A stretch of DNA of 40,264 bases from Flammeovirgaceae bacterium BBD 1991-12 (GTDB lineage: Bacteria; Bacteroidota; Bacteroidia; Cytophagales; Cyclobacteriaceae). The notes beneath the pieces were generated by a model. That model searched no databases. It had not been told where the DNA came from and worked only from the letters and a program-made list of their open reading frames with translations. The translations under genes were made by a program, and so were the position numbers. The stretch covers positions 1 to 40,264 of the forward strand of contig LYSV01000149.1 of assembly GCA_001657315.1 (NCBI GenBank), in the 5' to 3' direction. Below, piece by piece: positions 5,562 to 31,611 of the stretch. The number at the start of each line of letters is the position of its first letter. Within the stretch, counting starts at the first letter, position 1.

Positions 5562-5894
5562 ATGATGAAGAACAAAGGTCTTGGAGAGTTTGAAGAACTC
5601 GTACTTCTGGCCGTCTGCATTCTGGAAGATGGAGCCTATGGTGTATCCGTAAAACGGGAAATAGAAAAACATACCGGCAGGAGTATCCTGCTGGGTGCCG
5701 TGCACATCACGCTGTATCGCTTGCAGGACAAAGGTCTGCTGCAATCCGAGATGGGGGGTAATACCGGCAAACGTGGTGATCGCAGAAAGAGGCTTTTCAG
5801 GCTCACGGATATCGGTATGCGACAACTGCGCGCAGCACAGGAAGTGCGTCAGAAAATGTGGCGACTCATTCCCAACCTTAACCCTGGTACCTGA
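5562..5894 (+). CDS. PadR-family transcriptional regulator
   Basis: A 110-residue winged-helix protein of the short PadR type, without a long C-terminal dimer arm. Typical features are LGEFEELVLLAVCILEDGAYGVSV, the recognition region REIEKHTGRSILLGAVHITLYRLQDKGLL, the wing (KRGDRRKRLFRLTDIG) and a C-terminal helix. The start at 5562 (second ATG of ATGATG, the first being out of frame by 0 or +3) is supported by the promoter immediately upstream. The stop overlaps the permease start by one base (TGATG), so the two are translationally coupled. In Bacteroidota such pairs are common; the inferred role is ligand-relieved repression of the permease operon. The ligand is unknown. Confidence 0.9.
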   Translation: MMKNKGLGEFEELVLLAVCILEDGAYGVSVKREIEKHTGRSILLGAVHITLYRLQDKGLLQSEMGGNTGKRGDRRKRLFRLTDIGMRQLRAAQEVRQKMWRLIPNLNPGT

Positions 5895-8623
5895 TGAAGG
5901 ATCCCAGGCTGCATAAGACTCCTTCTTTGGCCAACTGGCTGGCTTCCAGATTCATTGATGACGAATATCTCGAAGAGTTCCTTGGCGATCTGCAGGAGAT
6001 CTATGAGGAAAGGAGAGCCAGCCATGGAAAGTTCCGTGCCAAACTTATGTACTGGATCGATGCTCTTCATCTGCTGTTTGGATTTTTCTCTTTCAGCCCG
6101 ATCAAAACTCAAAACAACAACACCATGATGTTCAGAAGTATGTTTAAGATCGTCTGGCGCAATGCCGTGAGGCAAAAGCAATTTACCATTCTTAATGTGC
6201 TGGGGCTTACACTCGGTATTGCCACCTGTCTCATTATCGGGTTATATGTATATGATGAGATAACCCATGACACCTTCCATACCAAAGGAAATCGTATCTA
6301 CAGGGTCAATCAACCCTTTATATGGGGTGACTGGAATAAGCAGTTTGCCTCCACAGGGCCTAATGTGGCGGTGGCATTAAAGGAAGAGGCACTGGAAATT
6401 GAGCAAGTAACAAGAATACTCGATATTGGTCCCCTGACTGTCCGGCCGGGTAATTACGAAACATCATCCAGGCTTTTCAAGGAAAAAAAATGTTATCTGG
6501 CTGAAGAAAACCTCCTGAATGTATTTGATTTTGAACTTCTTCAGGGTGACCCGAAAACCGTTCTTAAAGATCCTGAGAGCGCTGTATTGACTTTAGAGAC
6601 TGCAAGGCGTTATTTCGGCTATGAGGACCCATTGGGAAAAACAATACAGATCAGACAGAGAGATGGCTCATGGAGAATTTATAACGTAAAAGGTGTCCTG
6701 GCAGATCTGTCCCAAAAATCGCATCTGCAGTTTGACATTCTCATATCACTGAATAACATCAGGGAAAGGTTACAACGAGAAGACTGGAAATGGGCATGGA
6801 CAGCATTTTCAACGTACATTCTGGTTCAGGAGGGAGTAGATATAAAAGATCTGGAACATAAGATACAGGCTATTCCTCCCAAATGGGCATCGATCACCAC
6901 CGAGGGTATCTTTAAGCAGACATTCGAAGAATTCACCACAGGAAAGCCATGGAAGCTCTACCTGCAGCCTTTAGGAGAAATTTATCGGTCCGGTAAACCG
7001 GATCATCACCGTTTTGGTCCCACAGGTAACCCTCAATTTATGGAGCTGTTTACTGCCGTGGGCATATTGGTACTGGTGTTGTCAGGAATAAACTTTATGA
7101 ACCTCTCTACGGCCCGGGCGTCCAACAGAGCAAAAGAGGTAGGGGTGAGGAAAGTGCTGGGCTCAGAAAGAAAAGGGCTGATCCGACAGTTTATCCTCGA
7201 ATCGGTACTTTTTGTGACAGCGGGTACGCTATGTGCCTTATTGTTGACGCAGCTTGTTTTGAATTGGTTTAATACACTCACTGAAAAACAGTTGGCCTTG
7301 ACTCCCCATCTGACCAATCCGGTATTTGCAGGAATGTTGTTAACGTTTGTACTGCTGCTGGGTACGATATCGGGGAGCTATCCGGCTTTTTACCTCTCTT
7401 CCTTTAAACCTGTTGAAACTCTGAAAGGGAAGATCGCCGCGGGATTCATGGGAATAAGGAACGGTCTGGTGATATTTCAATTCACCATTTCCATTGCCCT
7501 GATTATCTGTGCCTTCTTCGTAGAAAAACAATTGGCATATACGTCTTCCCTGGATCTAGGGATGAAAAAAGAAAATGTGCTGCAAATCCATAATATTGAG
7601 CAATTGGATGCTAACGCAGAAGTTTTCAAGAGAAAACTGGCAACGCATCATGCCTTTACGAAGGTAGGCAGATCATTTGACATACCACCTCACATTTGGG
7701 ACGGGGAGAGATACAAAGCCTTTGCGTCTGAAAGTAAAGTGGTAAGTATCAGTAATTTCAGGGCAGATGATGACTACATGGCTTTGCTGGGGGTGGAGTT
7801 TATTTCTGGAAGGAATTTTGACCCGAAACGCTTCAACGACAAGCACAAGATCATTCTCAATGAAGAAGCTGTGAGGGTATTGGGTTTGGGTGCAGCGGAT
7901 ATGGAATCAGTGATTGGCAAATTTGTGGTCCAGGCGTTTGACAAGGAGGAAAAACTGGAAGTGATCGGCGTGGTGAGGGATTTTAATTTCAAAAGTTTGA
8001 GGGAAAAGATCGATCCCCTGATGATTATTCATCATCAAAACGACTTGTTTTACAATTATGACCAGGGTAGATCTTATCTCTCCCTACGTCTCAACCCGGA
8101 GGTAATTGAAAGTAGCAGAGACCTTCAGTCGATCATAAACGAAGTAAAGAAAGAGATGGAACAAATAGATTCCTCGGTACTGTTTGAATACAGTTTTATG
8201 GATGAAGAGTTTGAAAGTACTTTTCGTTCGGAGCAAAGGATGGGCAGGGTGCTGAACCTGTTCACGATCATGGCCGTGAGCATTGCCTGCCTCGGCTTGT
8301 TTGGCCTGGCGGCCTTTTCAGCTGAGCGACGTACCCGGGAGCTGGGGATCAGAAAAGTACTGGGCGCCGAAGTATTGAGACTTGTGATCACCTTTTCAAT
8401 GGAATTTGTAAAGCTGATCGTTATTGCCATTGCGTTGGCTTCGCCCATTGCATGGTTTGCTGTAGATATGTGGCTGGATAATTTTGCCTACCGTACTCCC
8501 ATGGACGTATGGGTTTTTGCACTGGCAGCCCTTGGAGCGCTTGCCATTGCCGTAGCCACCATCGGTTATCAGTCGTTCAGCGCAGCTCTGAGAAATCCTG
8601 TGGAGACCTTGAAAGAGGAGTAG
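5894..8623 (+). CDS. MacB/FtsX-type ABC permease with N-terminal prefix domain
   Basis: The 909-residue protein starts with a cytosolic prefix of about 75 residues (NWLASRFIDDEYLEEFLGDL, then a short hydrophobic helix near 50-65), typical of PadR-linked permeases in Cytophagales. The classical permease begins near residue 78 (MFKIVWRNAVRQKQFTILN) with a first membrane helix and a large periplasmic MacB-like domain. An FtsX core follows (INFMNLSTARASNRAKEVGVRKVLGS, about 395-420), then a second helix and periplasmic domain (from about 515) and a final FtsX core (SAERRTRELGIRKVLGAE, near 815). No ATP-binding gene is adjacent, so it would need an ATPase encoded elsewhere. The substrate is unknown; relatives move peptides, lipids or antibiotics, or act in mechanotransmission. 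Confidence 0.88.
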   Translation: MKDPRLHKTPSLANWLASRFIDDEYLEEFLGDLQEIYEERRASHGKFRAKLMYWIDALHLLFGFFSFSPIKTQNNNTMMFRSMFKIVWRNAVRQKQFTILNVLGLTLGIATCLIIGLYVYDEITHDTFHTKGNRIYRVNQPFIWGDWNKQFASTGPNVAVALKEEALEIEQVTRILDIGPLTVRPGNYETSSRLFKEKKCYLAEENLLNVFDFELLQGDPKTVLKDPESAVLTLETARRYFGYEDPLGKTIQIRQRDGSWRIYNVKGVLADLSQKSHLQFDILISLNNIRERLQREDWKWAWTAFSTYILVQEGVDIKDLEHKIQAIPPKWASITTEGIFKQTFEEFTTGKPWKLYLQPLGEIYRSGKPDHHRFGPTGNPQFMELFTAVGILVLVLSGINFMNLSTARASNRAKEVGVRKVLGSERKGLIRQFILESVLFVTAGTLCALLLTQLVLNWFNTLTEKQLALTPHLTNPVFAGMLLTFVLLLGTISGSYPAFYLSSFKPVETLKGKIAAGFMGIRNGLVIFQFTISIALIICAFFVEKQLAYTSSLDLGMKKENVLQIHNIEQLDANAEVFKRKLATHHAFTKVGRSFDIPPHIWDGERYKAFASESKVVSISNFRADDDYMALLGVEFISGRNFDPKRFNDKHKIILNEEAVRVLGLGAADMESVIGKFVVQAFDKEEKLEVIGVVRDFNFKSLREKIDPLMIIHHQNDLFYNYDQGRSYLSLRLNPEVIESSRDLQSIINEVKKEMEQIDSSVLFEYSFMDEEFESTFRSEQRMGRVLNLFTIMAVSIACLGLFGLAAFSAERRTRELGIRKVLGAEVLRLVITFSMEFVKLIVIAIALASPIAWFAVDMWLDNFAYRTPMDVWVFALAALGALAIAVATIGYQSFSAALRNPVETLKEE

Positions 8624-8657
8624 TATCAGGCATTGGCATACCCGGAATTATACATAA

Positions 8658-9869
8658 TCATACCTGCTCGCCTTCTGCTATCCTTAGCTTGTATTCCTGT
8701 GGGGTCATGCCATATTTACGCTTGAAGGCCACAGAAAAATTATTGGCAAACCGGTATCCAATGGCAGCAGCGACTGAGCCTATGGTTGAACCCGGGTCCA
8801 CCAGTAAACGACGGGCATTTTCTAGCCGGATATCATTTAAAAAGGCGATGACCGGTGTGCCAAACAGCGTCTTAAAACCTTTTTTTACTTTAAACGAATT
8901 GATCCCATGGTGACGGGACAGGCTTTGAATGGAAATGTCCTGCTCATAATGGTTTAAAAGGTGATCCCTGATCTCGTACAGTGTAAAAATATCCTGCACA
9001 CTGAGATGGTCGAGCCTGATATCGCCAATGGCCTTTTCTCCTTTCAAAAAGGTCTGCAGGGCCAGCAGCTCTTCTTTTCGTACGCTGAACCATGGCAGAT
9101 GGTCAGCGCCATCAGACAAAATGAGTTGTGAGGCGGATATGTTTTCATGAAGGTAATTCGCATGGCCACTTTCTATAAGCCGGTCCTCTTTGCGGTGCAT
9201 GACCAGTGTAGGTATGCCAATATCCTTCAGCAGGTGACAAATATCTATTTCCGTATTCATTTCGTAAAAGGCTCTGGCGGTGGCAGGACTGGCACTTCGG
9301 CGTAATAGGGTAGCCCACTGTTGCTGAGCCAAAGGATTATCCTTCACACTAGGTGCCATCAGGTGAAGGCCAATGGGTTTGCCCCAATGCATAAAAATAT
9401 GCTCCTTGGTTTGCTCATGCTGTTCACGGGTCAGTCCATAGGGGTAATCAGCGCTCCGGATCCATCGCGCAAAGGCACCGATAAGAATAAGATGACTTAC
9501 TCGATCAGGGTATTGAGAAGCAAAGCCAATGGCCAGCGGTCCACCTTCGGAAAGGCCCAGTAAGGCTGCACTTTTTATACCAATGGCATTCATCACGGCC
9601 AGCAGGTCCATGGTGCGGTGCCCGAAATCGGGTAGGTCCTGTTCGTTCACCCTGTCAGAAAGTCCGGTGCCGCGTTTGTCAAAGATGACCAACTTGCGGA
9701 TAGTGGCCAGGTAACGGAGCCATGCAGCCAGTTGGGGAATGTTCCAGACTTCCTCAATGTTGGACACCCAGCCCGGGACCAGAATGAGGTGATCTGTACC
9801 TGCGCCCATGACCTGATAGGCGATATTCACTCCGCAGGAACGTGCATATCTGGTTTCCGGTAGCTGCAT
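8658..9869 (-). CDS. Alpha/beta hydrolase fused to an AraC-type DNA-binding domain
   Basis: The 403-residue protein combines two modules. Residues 1-275 are an alpha/beta hydrolase (PETRYARSCGVNIAYQVMG, VPGWVSNIEEVW, FDKRGTGLSD) with an apparently intact catalytic triad: S107 in GLSEGG, D229 in HRKEDRLI and H257 in DGADHLPW. Residues 290-395 are a double helix-turn-helix of the AraC family (ISIQSLSRHHGINSFKVKKGF, then GSVAAAIGYRFANNFSVAFKRKYGMTPQEYK). The hydrolase part belongs to the group often joined to adenylate cyclases or LuxR domains. The inference is a one-component sensor that binds, and may cleave, a small ester or lactone. It is divergent from the hydrolase gene at 9989, a likely target. 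The start fits the family PETRYA N-terminus and lies 4 bases after a promoter element. Confidence 0.88.
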   Translation of the reverse strand: MQLPETRYARSCGVNIAYQVMGAGTDHLILVPGWVSNIEEVWNIPQLAAWLRYLATIRKLVIFDKRGTGLSDRVNEQDLPDFGHRTMDLLAVMNAIGIKSAALLGLSEGGPLAIGFASQYPDRVSHLILIGAFARWIRSADYPYGLTREQHEQTKEHIFMHWGKPIGLHLMAPSVKDNPLAQQQWATLLRRSASPATARAFYEMNTEIDICHLLKDIGIPTLVMHRKEDRLIESGHANYLHENISASQLILSDGADHLPWFSVRKEELLALQTFLKGEKAIGDIRLDHLSVQDIFTLYEIRDHLLNHYEQDISIQSLSRHHGINSFKVKKGFKTLFGTPVIAFLNDIRLENARRLLVDPGSTIGSVAAAIGYRFANNFSVAFKRKYGMTPQEYKLRIAEGEQV

Positions 9870-15170: not shown

Positions 15171-16515
15171 ATGTTTAAATCAGTCAATCCCTATAATCAG
15201 GAGGTAATAGCTACCTTTGACCATCAAAGCGAGGATCAGGTAAGGCAAATTCTGAATTCAGCGAATACTACCTTTACCAAATGGAGAACCACCCCTTTTG
15301 CCGCACGTGCGGAATTTTTGAAAAAAGTATCCGTTGAAATACGTGATAACCAGGTCCGGTATGCAGAGACTATCACACGGGAGATGGGGAAACCTATCCT
15401 GCAGGCCAGAGCCGAGCTGGAAAAAAGTGCATGGGTATGCGAATTTTATGCGGACCATGCCGAAGCATTTCTCAGAGAGGATATAGTAGAAACCGATGCA
15501 TCCAAAAGCTGGGTAAGCTATGAGCCTCTGGGAGTGATACTGGCCATTATGCCGTGGAACTACCCCTTCTGGCAGGTGATGCGATTCCTGGCCCCTGCCG
15601 TGATGGCCGGTTATACTTAAACACGCTCCTAATGTGATCGGAAGCGCTCTGCTGATCGAAGAAGCTTTTCAAAATGCGGGGTCCCAGGAAGGGCTCTTTC
15701 AAAATCTGATCATTGATGTTGACAGGGTAGAGGCTGTAATACGCAGCCCTGAGATAAGCGCTGTTACCCTTACAGGAAGTGAAAAGGCTGGAGAAGCCGT
15801 AGCCGCGCAGGCGGGTCGTGCTTTAAAGAAAACAGTGATGGAACTGGGGGGCAGTAATGCTTTCATTGTCCTTGAGGATGCTGATATGGAGCAGGCGGTA
15901 GAAACAGGTGTCCAGGCACGTATGCAGAACAATGGGCAGAGCTGTATTGCTGCCAAGCGCTTTTTGGTACATGAAGCGGTGGCAGACGAGTATATCCGCC
16001 GTTTTAAAGAACAATTGGAAGGCTTTATGGCAGGTGACCCCATGGATGAACAAACGACTATTGGACCACTGGCCCGTGTAGACCTTGCCGAAAAGCTGGA
16101 ACAACAGGTGGATCTGTCACTCAGGAAAGGAGCAAGACTGATCCTGGGTGGCGAAAGGAAAGGCGCTTTTTACAGTCCTACTGTCCTTACCAACGTGCAC
16201 CCCGGCATGCCTGCCTTCGATGAAGAACTGTTTGGCCCTGTGGCGACGTTTACCATCGTGAAAAGCCTTGAACAGGCAATTGAGTTGAACAACCGCTCCA
16301 CCTTTGGCCTGGGGGCTACCATTATGACCCGTAACACTACACGGGCTCAGGAAGCTGCCAAAAGCATTCAGGATGGAGCTGTTTTTATCAATACGTTGGT
16401 AAAGTCAGACCCCAGGCTGCCTTTTGGCGGCACAAAACATTCCGGTTACGGCCGTGAGCTGGGGGCGCATGGCATTCGCGAATTCGTGAATGTGAAGACC
16501 ATGTATATGGCCTGA
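15171..16515 (+). pseudogene. Succinate-semialdehyde-type aldehyde dehydrogenase, broken by a small deletion
   Basis: Two frames together make a ~450-residue enzyme of the GabD/Sad group: 15171-15620 (N-terminal Rossmann part, FKSVNPYNQEVIATF to MPWNYPFWQVMRFLAPAVMAG) and about 15623-16515. The second holds the catalytic Glu (MELGGSNAF) and Cys (NNGQSCIAAKR) and ends INTLVKSDPRLPFGGTKHSGYGRELG. Relatives read PAVMAGNTxLLKHAPNV at the junction. Here GCCGGT is followed by only TATA before CTTAAACAC, which fits loss of about 8 bases and shifts the frame to a TAA. The rest is undamaged, so the lesion is either recent or an assembly error. The intact enzyme would oxidise succinate semialdehyde or a similar short aldehyde with NAD(P). 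Confidence 0.85.
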
Positions 16516-19026: not shown

Positions 19027-19175
19027 TAAAAAATAGGATAATGCTAGCTAATGACCTTATTGTCAAGGCTTAAAATACAAATTAAGGTTTTATTTTAATA
19101 GCCAGCCAAACATAAATGTTAAGAATTACCTGATGGCTGCTACCTTTTTCATTATCCATTCCAACTGTACAAATT

Positions 19176-19208
19176 ATAAAATTGCAGCCATAAAGGCTGC
19201 AATTTTAT
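19176..19208 (-). terminator. Strong hairpin terminator after the small peptide gene
   Basis: ATAAAATTGCAGCC (19176-19189) and GGCTGCAATTTTAT (19195-19208) form a perfect 14-bp stem with a 5-base loop. On the minus strand the stem is GC-rich at the tip and ends in a T-rich arm, five bases beyond the peptide stop codon. It also works from the plus side. It shows that transcription of the peptide operon ends here, before the membrane-kinase-like gene. Confidence 0.8.
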
Positions 19209-19213
19209 AGTGA

Positions 19214-19333
19214 TTAACCACAAGGTACCACCCAGCACTTTAACCAACAATCATCACCACGGCATAAAGAATTAAACTTGTCCGTCTTTTTGCTTAAGAT
19301 CTCTTCAATAAGCTGCTCTTTTTTCGTTTTCAT
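19214..19333 (-). CDS. 39-residue Cys/Trp-rich peptide, candidate modified-peptide precursor
   Basis: This short frame starts at ATG 19333 and ends at TAA 19214-19216. The first 23 residues (KTKKEQLIEEILSKKTDKF and following NSL) look like a charged, helical leader. The last 16 are CRGDDCWLKCWVVPCG, with four Cys (24, 29, 33, 38), two Trp and a terminal Gly. Leader plus Cys-rich tail is the layout of ribosomally made, modified peptides or small bacteriocins. It lies 50 bases after the GRDP-like gene on the same strand and directly before a strong terminator, so both likely share one mRNA. I recognise no homologous family. Alternatives are a small metal-binding protein or a chance frame; the tight placement between gene and terminator argues against chance. 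Confidence 0.6.
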   Translation of the reverse strand: MKTKKEQLIEEILSKKTDKFNSLCRGDDCWLKCWVVPCG

Positions 19334-19383
19334 AATAGAATCATTAAATGTTTAAAATGCGCCTACTCTATTTTGTCAGGTTT

Positions 19384-19935
19384 TCAGCTTCCCCCTGTTT
19401 TGCTTTTTAATATTTGCAATTTCTCTATGTTTTCTTCGCTATATTTTTCAGGATAGAGTTCAAACCATTTTCTTACCGTTTCCTCTCCCAGATGATCGTA
19501 AGTGGTGCTCACGAGATCTTTAAGTTGCTTGAGAAATACTTCTTTGATCTTTTCCGGCTCTTCTTTTTTTTGCCGTTCCCTTTCCTGCTTTTCCTGATAA
19601 CTGGTGGGTGTGTGATGCACATAGCGACCGAAATATTTTCGGCAGAATTCATGATAATCCTTTGTGAATAGGATGAAATTATGCCACATCTCATCAATCA
19701 TCAATAAATCGCTATTGATAAAAATCCCTTCTTTCGATTTCCTTCCCAAATAGATAAACTTGAGGGTTTCGCTGAACAGATCAACTGCCTCTTCCTGACT
19801 TACATCGAACTTCTCCGTAAATCTGGAAATCACATTTTCGTTACGGTACTCCAATATCTCACGCAGGGAGGCTGAATTTTCTTGAGAAGACTGGTTGTTA
19901 AGTGACCTAACCGCTTCATTTGGATTTGTTTTCAT
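19384..19935 (-). CDS. GRDP-like (glycine-rich domain protein-like) protein
   Basis: A 183-residue cytoplasmic protein. The recognisable part is residues ~75-115, LMIDEMWHNFILFTKDYHEFC followed by FGRYVHHTPTSY, which matches the short conserved DExWHxFILFTxxYxxFC...FIHHxP pattern of GRDP-like (DUF1399-type) proteins. The N-terminal 25 residues are polar and probably disordered. A Lys/Glu-rich helix (QEKQERERQKKEEPEKIKE) follows, then a short C-terminal region. The conserved His and Cys residues could bind metal, but the family's biochemistry is unknown to me. It is the first gene of a likely two-gene operon with the Cys-rich peptide, and might serve that peptide. No transporter or known peptide-modifying enzyme is nearby. 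Confidence 0.7.
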   Translation of the reverse strand: MKTNPNEAVRSLNNQSSQENSASLREILEYRNENVISRFTEKFDVSQEEAVDLFSETLKFIYLGRKSKEGIFINSDLLMIDEMWHNFILFTKDYHEFCRKYFGRYVHHTPTSYQEKQERERQKKEEPEKIKEVFLKQLKDLVSTTYDHLGEETVRKWFELYPEKYSEENIEKLQILKSKTGGS

Positions 19936-27560: not shown

Positions 27561-30500
27561 ATGAAAGGGTTTCTTCTATCTGTCTTTGCCGTACTTCTGT
27601 TGACCAGTGCAGGCTTCAGCCAGCAACAGTCTTTGTTTACGCAGTATAAGTTCAACCGGCTCACAGAAAACGAAGGACTGACCAATAACATTATTACGGA
27701 CATCATTCAGGACACACTGGGACATATCTGGGTAGGTACTGAAGACGGACTGTTCCGTTATATGGGCGGCAATTTCAAGAAATTCATGCGGGAAAGGGAC
27801 AACGGTTATACACTGCCCAATAATCACATCAACGGTCTGTATGTAGATCACCTGAATGACCTCTGGATCCTGACACAAACAGGAGTGGGTAAGTACAGTT
27901 ACCAGCAAGACGCAGTTGTTCCATACCATCCTGAAACGATCAATAAAAATGTTATTTCCATGGTTCGTGACGGCAATGTTTGTTACCTGGACAGGTACGG
28001 AGGAGGAGTATGGCGTGTGAGCAATGATTCTATCAATGCATTGCCCCTTTACGATCATGAAAGTAAGACAGATTATTCTCATTGGCCTGTGGTGAGAATG
28101 GACAAGGCTGGTGACATGCTTTGGATGGCATTCCTCGAACGGGGTATCCTTGGCATGGATCTGACCGACGGTACGTTTACCTATTTTTCATCTCATGAAA
28201 TATGTGGTAAGGATAAATTGCAGGTATTCGAAGTTTTTACAGATAGGCTGGACCGTGTTTGGCTGGGAACAGATTCCGGTCCCTTCTTTATTTCAGAGCA
28301 AGGTGAAGGTAAATATGGAGTGAACCGTATTTTACCAGACCACCTGCCTGCAGATGATTACCTGAGTGTAAGCCTGGATCTCAGCAACAACCTGTGGCTC
28401 GGGACCCGTCAGAACGGGTTATTTGCTTGACCTGTCCGCCAGGGATATGGAAGCCTCGCTGCAGCACTTTCTGCCTTCTATTGATGACAACAGCATCTCA
28501 CACAGAACCATTAGCAAGATATTTACAGACAGGGCGGGCCTCCTTTGGCTGGGCACGCATAACGGAGGGATCAACGTATTCGATCCGCGAGGTGTGAAGG
28601 TCCACACCGTTACCCACCTGCTGAACAGCGCGAATACCATCAGCTATCAGAATGTATGGGGGATCGCTGAGTCTGGGGAAGGTTTGATCTGGGTGGGCAC
28701 AGATGGCAAGGGCATCAACCTTTTCGACCCCAATACCGGTGAGGTGATCGACGATATGCTTCCCGAACTCCGCAACAAAGCCATTCTTTGTATTCTGGAA
28801 GATCGAAAGTCCCGGGTCTGGATAGGTACGTATGAGAACGGGGTCTATCTTTACAACAGAAACATGGGACTTGTACAGTCCTACCGTAAAGACGGCGCCA
28901 ATTCCGATTTAACCGTAAATGATATCCGGTGTTTTTATGAATCACCTTCCGGAACGGTATACGTCGGTACCAACCGGGGTGGACTTTACCGCTTTGAGGA
29001 AGGAACGGGGAGGATAACGCTCCTTCAACGTACCTATAATCATGACATCAGGGCCATTTCAAGCACCGCGGAAGATCAGCTATGGCTGGGTACCTACGAA
29101 GAGGGGCTGGTGAACTTTGACCTCACCCGTGACAGCCTGGTCTATTACAAATGGACAAACAACAATACATCTATCCGGGTCATTTTTGATATCCTTAAGG
29201 ATGATAGTATACTCTGGCTCGGTACAAGTCAGGATGGATTAAAAGCGTTCAATACCAAAACGCTGGAGTATGTTTCCACTCCGCTCATCGGATCGCTGCA
29301 GGGAAGTACGGTAAAAGGTGTATCCATTGATCATCACAATAATCTGTGGCTCACTACCAACAATGGCATAATTGCTGCCAATCTCCAAAGCGGAGGGACC
29401 AAGCGCTTTGATCACCGGAATGGTTTTCAAAAAGGTCAGTTCAATGATGGGTCCGTATTCTTCTCCGGCCACGGCTACATTGTGGCCGGCGGGATCTTCG
29501 GTATGAATGTGTTTTACCCAGGACAGCTATTGGAGAAAAAAGCTTTTCCGGATGTAGTTTTCAGTGAGTTGCGGATATTGAATAAAAAAATGACCCCGGT
29601 AAATTCCAGGGTATTCCCCGATGGAAAAAGCATTTTCCTCACTGAAGAGGTACAACTCAACTACGACGACAACTTCTTTTCAGTGGATTTCATGATCCCG
29701 GGCTTTTACAGTGAAAGACAGAATGACCTTGAGTACCGGCTGGAAGGATACGATGAGGGGTGGCAGTCCATTCGTGATTTTCATACGGCGGTGTATCGGA
29801 ATGTATCCCCTGGAAACTACCTGTTCCAGGTGAAGTATGTGGACAGTGAGACCGTTACCCGGCAATTAAGCATTACCGTCACGCCGCCCCTTTGGAGGAC
29901 CTGGCAGGCTTATTTGTTGTTTTTTGTCGTCATCCTGTTGATCGTATGGAGGCTGATCAGGTTCAACAACAGCAGGATCGTACTTCGTCAGAATTTGGCA
30001 TTTGAAAAACAATTACGGTTACAGGAGTCGAAGGATATGAAAGAGAAACTAAGGTTTTATACCAATTTCTCCCATGAACTCAAGACCCCACTGACCCTTA
30101 TCCAGGGCCCTGTTAATGACTTGATCAAAAAGACAAGCGATGAGGAGCATTTGCATTACCTGCGCCTGATCAAAAAGAATACCTCCGTTCTGCTCCGGTT
30201 CATCGGTAAGATCCTGGAGTTCCGTAAGATTGAAATGAACCGAACCTTACTGAACGTAGGCTATTATGACCTGAACGTACTGGCGCAGGAAGAAGCCGAA
30301 AGCTTTGCCTATCTGGCCAGGGAAAAGGAAATGAAATTTGGCTTTTACTCGGAGACCGACCTCTATGCCTGGGTGGACATTGAGAAGATACAGATCATAA
30401 TGAACAATCTACTGTCCAATGCCATCAAGTTCTCAGAAAAGGGACAGACCATAAAGTTTGGTGTGTTCCATGAGCAGGAAGACATCGTGATAGAGGTGAA

Positions 30501-31611
30501 GGACGAGGGGGTGGGAATACCTCAGAAAGAAATAAAAAAAATATTTACACCTTTTTACCAGGCTGAAAACTCGGCTGGTTCCGGAGGCACAGGCATAGGG
30601 CTGACACTGTGCAAGCGGTTTATAGAGCTTCATGGAGGGCGAATAATACTGAACAGCGAGGCTGGAAAGGGGACACAGTTTCTCGTTCATTTACCCCAGG
30701 GGAAACAGCACCTTGCCGATAAGGATTATATACGGTTTGTAAAAGTGAAGCAGGAAGAGATTGAGGAAGGCTTATCAACACATGCTGAAGATCATCCTGA
30801 GGTACAGCATGACATTTCAGATTCTGACAGGGTAATTCTGATTGTGGATGACAATGCCGATATTACCGCTTACATGCACACCCTCTTTTCTCCGGCTTTC
30901 AAGGTATTGCAGGCTGGAAACGGCAGAGAAGCCCTGGACCTTGCAATCAACAACATACCGGATGTGATCATTTCTGACTGGATGATGCCTGATATGGACG
31001 GGCTGGAATTTTGCAGGTCTGTGAAAAGTTTGACAGCAACCAGTCATATACCCGTGATCATGGTGACGGCAAGGAACTCCGATGAATCCCGGATGAAGGG
31101 ATATGAGTTTGGCGCCGACGATTACATAACCAAACCTTTCAACTCCGATCTGCTGCTCGTGAGGGTCAACAGTATTCTGGGTAACCGGAAGCTGATACAG
31201 CTTAGATATCAGGCTGGTGCAAGTCTGGAAAATGAGGACAACGCTCCATCCAAAGAAGTGAAATTTATTTTGAAGGTGGAAGCTGCTATTCTCCATCTGC
31301 TGGAAATCTCAGCATTCAGTGTACCTGACCTCTGCAGAGAGGTAGGCCTCAGCCAGACCTCTCTGTACCGGAAGATCAAGACCCTTACCGGTGATTCCAT
31401 CCAGATGTTTATCCGCAAGGTAAAGATCAAACGTGCCGCGGAACTTTTGGTAAGTGATGACCTTTCCGTTACCGAGGTAGCCTTCAGTCTCGATTTTTCA
31501 GATCTGAAGTATTTCCGCAAGTGCTTTAAGGAGCAGCTCGGTATGACACCCTCGGCTTACCGGAACACTCATGCCAGCACTGTGAGTGGTATCAGGATAC
31601 AGGAATTGTGA
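27561..31611 (+). pseudogene. Hybrid two-component system regulator (HTCS), interrupted by a one-base frameshift
   Basis: Two frames, 27561-28430 (signal peptide, first propeller repeats, ending NNLWLGTRQNGLFA) and 28423-31611 (from LDLSARDMEA), make one ~1350-residue HTCS of normal length. At the junction one extra base in GGGTTATTTGCTTGAC would read GLYLLDLS, so a single base is missing. The second part has reg-prop propeller repeats (DRAGLLWLGTHNGGINVFD onward), a Y_Y_Y domain (~412-485), a membrane helix (~497-513), HisKA with H551 (FSHELKTPLTL), HATPase (NNLLSNAIKFSEKG; DEGVGIP; GTGIGLTLC), a receiver with D852 (SDWMMPD) and KPF, and an AraC-type HTH (~960-1050). It would sense glycan fragments in the periplasm and switch on the locus. 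A TTG start for the second part is unlikely to give a functional sensor. Confidence 0.88.

Follow-up and report, generated by a model that had tools for sequence, protein, structure and literature searches.

The larger protein of the locus described here resembles the plant and viral GRDP domain (PF07173, DUF1399); plant GRDPs are reportedly described for growth, stress and ovule development and not for peptide maturation, and the literature searched holds no description of GRDP-linked precursors or of such a pairing. Further points of reference are peptides with double-glycine leaders and ABC export, and the TIGR04222 membrane proteins. A separate group comprises the MNIO (DUF692/PF05114) RiPPs, including bufferins, methanobactin and the TglH/ChrH products, in which a Cys-motif precursor lies beside a dedicated partner and the Cys residues are the presumed targets (PMC12452194); the terms GRDP, glycine-rich, PF07173 and DUF1399 each have zero occurrences in the main text of that paper.

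The window, that is, the whole stretch of 40,264 nt analysed here, is an entire contig of an 8.6-Mb genome. On its minus strand, the gene for a 183-aa GRDP-like protein (19384-19935, motif D81-E-M-W-H85 ... H107-H108-x-P110) is the first of a pair and is followed, after a 50-nt spacer (19334-19383), by a precursor-type peptide ORF (19214-19333, stop codon included), distinguished by its leader-profile rank and by a leader/Cys rule given below. Its translation, MKTKKEQLIEEILSKKTDKFNSLCRGDDCWLKCWVVPCG, has 39 residues, divided into a charged 23-residue leader, MKTKKEQLIEEILSKKTDKFNSL (19265-19333), similar to the leaders of other GRDP-linked precursors, and a variable 16-residue Cys/Trp core, CRGDDCWLKCWVVPCG (19217-19264). 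Both this 23 + 16 layout and the 50-base gap agree with the initial annotation, which had also placed a perfect 14-bp terminator 5 bases beyond the peptide. A perfect hairpin is indeed present on the same strand (19175-19209, 5-nt loop) and is likely a terminator, possibly a bidirectional one, but its stem measures 15 bp, it begins 4 nt past the stop codon, its U-tract is weak, and a simple terminator scan of the window did not list it. Bacteroidetes-type promoters follow a -33/-7 pattern, and none was found in the 685 nt upstream of the GRDP-like gene. From the evidence below we conclude that the 39-aa peptide and the GRDP-like gene are a genuine pair belonging to a genuine family, for which we infer a mechanism.

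For an ORF this short, the simplest alternative is a chance reading frame or a non-coding stretch in the tail of a transcript. The core has no convincing homologue in its own genome or in 97 relatives, and a search with the peptide alone across these 98 genomes returned only the peptide itself, the best other match (E 0.014) lying inside a 507-aa frame. Pfam, NCBIfam, PHROGs, PADLOC and Rfam assigned no family to the peptide or the locus; the best values at the locus for the defence families of PADLOC (E 0.021) and the phage families of PHROGs (E 0.078) were insufficient for an assignment. Against chance stands the composition of the ORF, which is the only one among 292 window ORFs of 28-60 aa with at least four Cys in its last 16 residues. 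It is also the only one of 378 window ORFs of 28-110 aa to pass a rule, devised after examples had been seen, that asks for the leader motif in a charged context followed by at least two Cys. A profile of 24 other leaders, the first such profile and one devised after the peptides had been seen, ranked the peptide first of 572 small window ORFs (E 2.3e-5; next 1.6). When the profile was instead built from 21 leaders found in genomes of the window's family, the peptide itself excluded, it again came first of the 572 (E 7.9e-6; next 1.2), and it was recovered by the nine TonB-type leaders alone (E 6.2e-5) and by the remaining 15 (E 0.0072). Since a leader profile built without the peptide ranks it first of 572, the ORF, judged on its sequence, is not due to chance, an explanation that we regard as extremely improbable.

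The pairing recurs well beyond the window. GRDP-like matches occur in 13 of 15 genomes of the genus and, at E 1e-8, in 36 of 390 genomes of the family. In most of the first ten homologous stretches, the GRDP-like gene is directly preceded by a short ORF, as with MKTNKEALISRILADKATKAVGGTHCSNCGHCTSTL at L065; the window's own genome has a second GRDP locus (L074), where MSVKLKKQTTSNKAKRDLIENLISKNQGKSSIKCMGCIGEGEGPGF takes that position. At family level, a candidate upstream precursor was found at 26 of 30 loci, the exceptions being L161, L165 (at a contig edge), L173 and L184. We then drew on a survey of the contigs of 84,980 species, which yielded 130 relatives, the best 80 of which were analysed; the set is biased in favour of the residues that make up the survey patterns, DEMWH[NT][FM] and [DE]I[FL]xET[KL]K[WF]L. 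The leader/Cys rule was satisfied by a same-strand ORF no more than 800 nt away at 57 of these 80 GRDP loci, compared with 53 of 4594 control windows taken from the same loci and overlapping each other. One related type, defined by a 306-aa gene and here called TonB-type, accounts for 37 of the best 80 loci; the rule held at 31 of these and at 26 of the 43 others. The ORF lies upstream of the GRDP-like gene at 47 of the 57 rule-positive loci and downstream, in the window's order, at 10. Represented among these loci are Bacteroidota and Pseudomonadota, together with a cyanobacterium (L151), a planctomycete (L140) and, as a weaker case, a myxobacterium (L142). The remaining 23 of 80 fail the rule, although plausible, uncounted precursors are visible by eye at some of them (e.g. 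L082, L083, L110, L137, L153).

For a held-out test, 18 of the 80 loci were set aside, and a profile of 21 family leaders was applied to all small ORFs of the 62 that lay outside its training group. The top-scoring small ORF was adjacent and on the same strand in 43 of 62, with 1.44 expected, while 19 failed. By type, the test was passed at 27 of the 29 loci that have the 306-aa gene and at 16 of the remaining 33; several of these 16 score low (L142, 0.2 bits; L144, 2.7), and for the TonB type, present in both training and test sets, independence is taxonomic only. The GRDP-linked ORFs have in common a related leader, KKxxLIxxLLxKN, joined to a variable Cys core. A short ORF with a conserved leader and a variable core, and recurrent linkage of such a precursor to one protein family, are expected of a RiPP precursor/maturase pair; both were found here, the latter at 57 of 80 loci and in 43 of the 62 held out. 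The initial annotation had inferred a two-gene system that the absence of any similar peptide at other GRDP-like genes would refute. Short Cys ORFs with a related leader recur beside GRDP-like genes across phyla; that outcome therefore did not occur, and the two-gene inference has good support. Its expectation of four conserved Cys behind a variable leader was reversed: within the precursor families conservation is seen in the leader, while the core differs from one member to the next, including the number and spacing of its Cys, with the exception of one large subfamily whose cores are mostly HCSNCGHC-like.

Coding constraint was estimated on sets of equal-length precursors, leaving out two 42-aa members of g86 (L180, L182) as well as TonB-type precursors of other lengths and repeated copies. 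For seven precursors of g86, which come from one Marivirga-like genus, we obtained dS 0.753 and dN 0.331 (dN/dS ~0.44), and for 13 TonB-type precursors dS 1.43 and dN 0.18 (dN/dS ~0.13). dN is thus below dS in two sister precursor families; for the window's own peptide, no close relative was found.

Together, these data make it likely that the peptide is a RiPP-type precursor and that the GRDP-like protein is its dedicated partner, carrier or maturase. The initial annotation noted no classical RiPP enzyme close by, and this holds: Pfam scans of 28 window ORFs, two of them being the pair itself, brought up neither a known RiPP enzyme nor a dedicated peptide exporter. A MacB/FtsX-type permease (5894-8623) lies ~11 kb from the pair with no sign of a link. 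Because these 28 ORFs include no modifying enzyme or exporter, and because the 306-aa partner of the TonB-type loci has no match in the window's genome (in a search that had no positive control), the lone pair could be a remnant. Elsewhere in the window, consecutive plus-strand ORFs (15171-15620 and 15634-16515) cover positions 9-154 and 168-460 of one aldehyde dehydrogenase profile, so that this gene appears split; a hybrid two-component sensor with HTH (28423-31611, +) begins inside a Reg_prop-only ORF (27561-28430, +), the two possibly being one sensor gene in two frames; and an IS116/IS110/IS902 transposase family match lies near the contig end (39460-39936, +).

Beyond the terminator, the window encodes a 290-aa protein with a sub-threshold HisKA match, which bears on a reading of the product as a peptide pheromone that is exported and sensed by a histidine kinase. 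In keeping with this, 7 of the 80 loci have a kinase-like gene (~1100 aa) whose start is no more than 1.5 kb downstream of the GRDP-like gene (the one scanned contains Reg_prop, Y_Y_Y, HisKA and HATPase), and a 1094-aa gene, kinase-like by eye, lies directly downstream at the own genome's second GRDP locus. The 290-aa gene, however, has homologues at 50-63% identity in seven other genomes of the genus, none with a GRDP-like gene within 1.5 kb, so that its nearness is probably accidental and its coupling to the pair unlikely; for the same reason, the pair itself seems to be a lineage-specific arrival at this locus. The pair also has no exporter. We consider a pheromone role unlikely; it would concern what the product does and not how it is made, and is compatible with the precursor reading.

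Neighbouring genes at the best 80 of the 130 loci were counted on the same strand up to 9 kb downstream, with clusters named from one scanned member each. The TonB-type set predominates, with the 306-aa protein at 36 loci, a TonB receptor at 34, a DUF3526 permease at 34, a DUF4374 lipoprotein at 33 and an ABC ATPase at 30. The 306-aa protein itself gave a beta-rich model whose fold matches are Ig-like proteins at low TM. This setting favours the idea that the peptide undergoes no covalent chemistry and binds metal as it is, a Cys/His ligand of metallophore or metallothionein-like kind that the GRDP-like protein chaperones: the largest subfamily combines the conserved, metal-ligand-like core HCSNCGHC with the TonB receptor, the DUF4374 lipoprotein and the DUF3526 ABC permeases. 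According to PMC12452194, moreover, bufferins, the largest MNIO product families, chelate copper, and TIGR04222 proteins, which some GRDP proteins resemble (L023, 21.3 bits; cut-off 43), are discussed as possible MNIO substrates. The window core, on the other hand, contains no His, many cores (CMTLCASN, RFCGCVICLVD) are not obvious metal sites, and modifying-type enzymes adjoin the pair at Pseudoalteromonas loci or a GRDP protein with a Cys tail (L216). On balance, we find an unmodified ligand unlikely.

The Pseudoalteromonas loci are six in number (L114-L118, L120) and show the GRDP-like gene and then the peptide, as in the window, followed by a methyltransferase and a P450. This row is a candidate compact RiPP cluster; one P450 from it was scanned and matched the NCBIfam RiPP P450 ApyO at 20 of 525 bits, far below the cut-off and not as its best hit. 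More generally, the neighbours found elsewhere, whether methyltransferase and P450, radical SAM and TauD, HlyD and ABC exporter, or TonB receptor and ABC permeases, suit modified, exported peptides. Separately, very Cys-rich precursors of 91 and 89 aa lie directly downstream of GRDP-like genes at L126 (2963-3238, +) and L113 (6981-7250, +), and in the cyanobacterium (L151) a pyridoxal-dependent decarboxylase gene (7627-9081, +) comes after the peptide and GRDP-like genes.

The same 9-kb counts gave an ABC exporter at 10 of 80 loci, HlyD at 8, MATE at 8 and an S9-type peptidase at 4. Exporters of this kind would also suit a bacteriocin whose producer is protected by the GRDP-like protein, as would the GG motif that precedes the Cys-rich core in several precursors at exporter or HlyD loci. 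Cognate immunity proteins are, however, usually not far more conserved than their toxins, as the GRDP-like protein is relative to the cores, and GRDP domains that carry Cys-rich tails in cis do not suit an immunity function; we therefore judge this explanation very unlikely. At one exporter locus, L133 of Shewanella waksmanii, the GRDP, HlyD and ABC exporter genes are preceded, upstream of 10001, by a tandem series of five similar precursors (ELIEEALL..VSGGQLDI..C.ISCISC.ECLF).

We next consider the GRDP-like protein, which on the precursor reading would handle the peptide. Its AlphaFold2 model is mainly helical (mean pLDDT 86.4, pTM 0.79) and contains no strand of three or more residues, so that it is not the winged helix with beta strands of a PqqD-like RRE, and 0 of 21 members have an RRE-type Pfam match. 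The top BFVD match of the model is a Harvfovirus 'Glycine-rich domain-containing protein-like' entry (E 0.018, probability 1.00, TM 0.55 by query and 0.71 by target). Foldseek against the PDB gave no usable match (best E 4.7), and the best hit of a PDB sequence search (E 0.02) was short and not meaningful. The name 'GRDP-like' used in the initial annotation is supported by this fold, by the WH/HHxP motif common to the window protein and PF07173, and by distant homologues that match PF07173 weakly and below its cut-off (at best 20.7 bits, with 22.7 required), but Pfam gives no such name to the window protein or to 20 close homologues, none of which exceeds the PF07173 cut-off; a PF07173 search of the own genome returned no match, with its controls equally silent. 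In 81 of 81 sequences, F39, D81, E82, M83, W84, H85, Y94, H108 and G150 are invariant, and P110 (80/81) and H107 and W157 (79/81 each) nearly so, the conservation of the DEMWH block being biased by the search pattern and by the way the gene was located. The tree places the window protein at the base of a supported set of 47 rows (98/92) that are otherwise mostly TonB-type.

Cys-rich segments are also found on GRDP proteins themselves. Among 11 distant GRDP-like homologues (L022-L031, L184), nine have a C-terminal tail with Cys, of the type CGSC (L022, L184), CWHDCENRCWHAC (L027) or Gly/Ser/Cys runs (L023-L026, L028, L029), and L030 and L031 have none. Seven PF07173 matches were obtained in 395 genomes of the class, and four of them carry a Cys-rich tail: L205 (CWHYCQDECWHYC), L206, L210 (just below the cut-off) and L208 (read in L217). 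L207, L209 and L211 are without one, and L207 has lost the WH motif. At the L027 locus (L216, 4094-6782, +), genes for a radical SAM protein (weak B12-binding match) and a TauD dioxygenase lie upstream of, and in one run with, a GRDP protein ending in CWHDCENRCWHACSDE; the L205 locus (L212) likewise has a TauD gene, with two ORFs in between. At L146 (9923-11035, +), an unbroken ORF joins a GRDP-like domain to a leader-like, Cys-rich segment, KEELIGKITEHNAK...SCGCSGKGCGAGCSC, and is a candidate natural fusion of partner and substrate.

Within the precursor reading, the association of the two genes is an observation, and from it we infer leader binding, Cys chemistry and an activity of the lone pair. 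The 39-aa ORF would be ribosomally made as a precursor with a charged 'KKxxLIxxILxKK'-type leader and a 16-residue Cys/Trp core. The helical GRDP domain may bind it through the leader and act on, or present, the Cys-containing core, and a metal could be bound by conserved D81, H85, H107 and H108. Proteins encoded elsewhere in the genome would then remove the leader and export the product; at some other loci, genes for candidate exporters and enzymes lie close by. A broader proposal, which we advance tentatively as possible though on balance doubtful, is that an unrecognised RiPP class, present in several phyla, has the bacterial GRDP domain as its founding maturation protein. The domain would bind and chemically alter Cys-rich segments, whether these are separate short precursors (in trans) or Cys/Trp or Gly/Cys tails at the C-terminus of GRDP proteins (in cis), possibly with a metal at the conserved Asp/His. 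The same ancestral activity might lie behind the GRDP domains of giant viruses and plants.

If correct, the precursor reading would make a family without known biochemistry the way into a widespread group of peptides missed by the profile libraries used here, whose precursors are short and varied and whose close GRDP-like partners have no convincing Pfam or NCBIfam match. The GRDP domain would also gain a function that can be tested directly, through leader binding and Cys chemistry, and many new candidate peptides would become minable beside GRDP-like genes. Recurrent pairs in distantly related bacteria point to an unrecognised way of making modified peptides.

Compared with the known systems, the window has the gene layout of the MNIO RiPPs and differs from them in several respects. 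PF05114 has no match in the window genome or in five other genomes of the genus, while it is present in 13 of 29 genomes searched, and MNIO-dependent maturation is accordingly rejected for the window genome; no DUF2063 or RRE profile matches any of 21 GRDP-like proteins, and the window precursor shows no Sec signal by eye. Several Pseudomonadota and cyanobacterial GRDP loci, with GG-type leaders and ABC exporter or HlyD genes, are similar to the double-glycine-leader systems, unlike the window, whose leader has no GG and which has no such exporter adjacent. With the plant and viral GRDPs the window protein has in common the fold, as seen in the Harvfovirus protein, and the WH...HHxP motif, although its close family is below Pfam detection by sequence. 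Finally, the Gly/Ser/Cys tails of TIGR04222 membrane proteins, which are putative MNIO substrates, are comparable to those of the long GRDP proteins L023, L025, L026, L029 and L217, of which L023 alone was scanned, with the sub-cut-off match given above; in TIGR04222 the Cys tail is part of a long protein, in cis, whereas the window has its 39-aa peptide encoded apart from the 183-aa GRDP-like protein.
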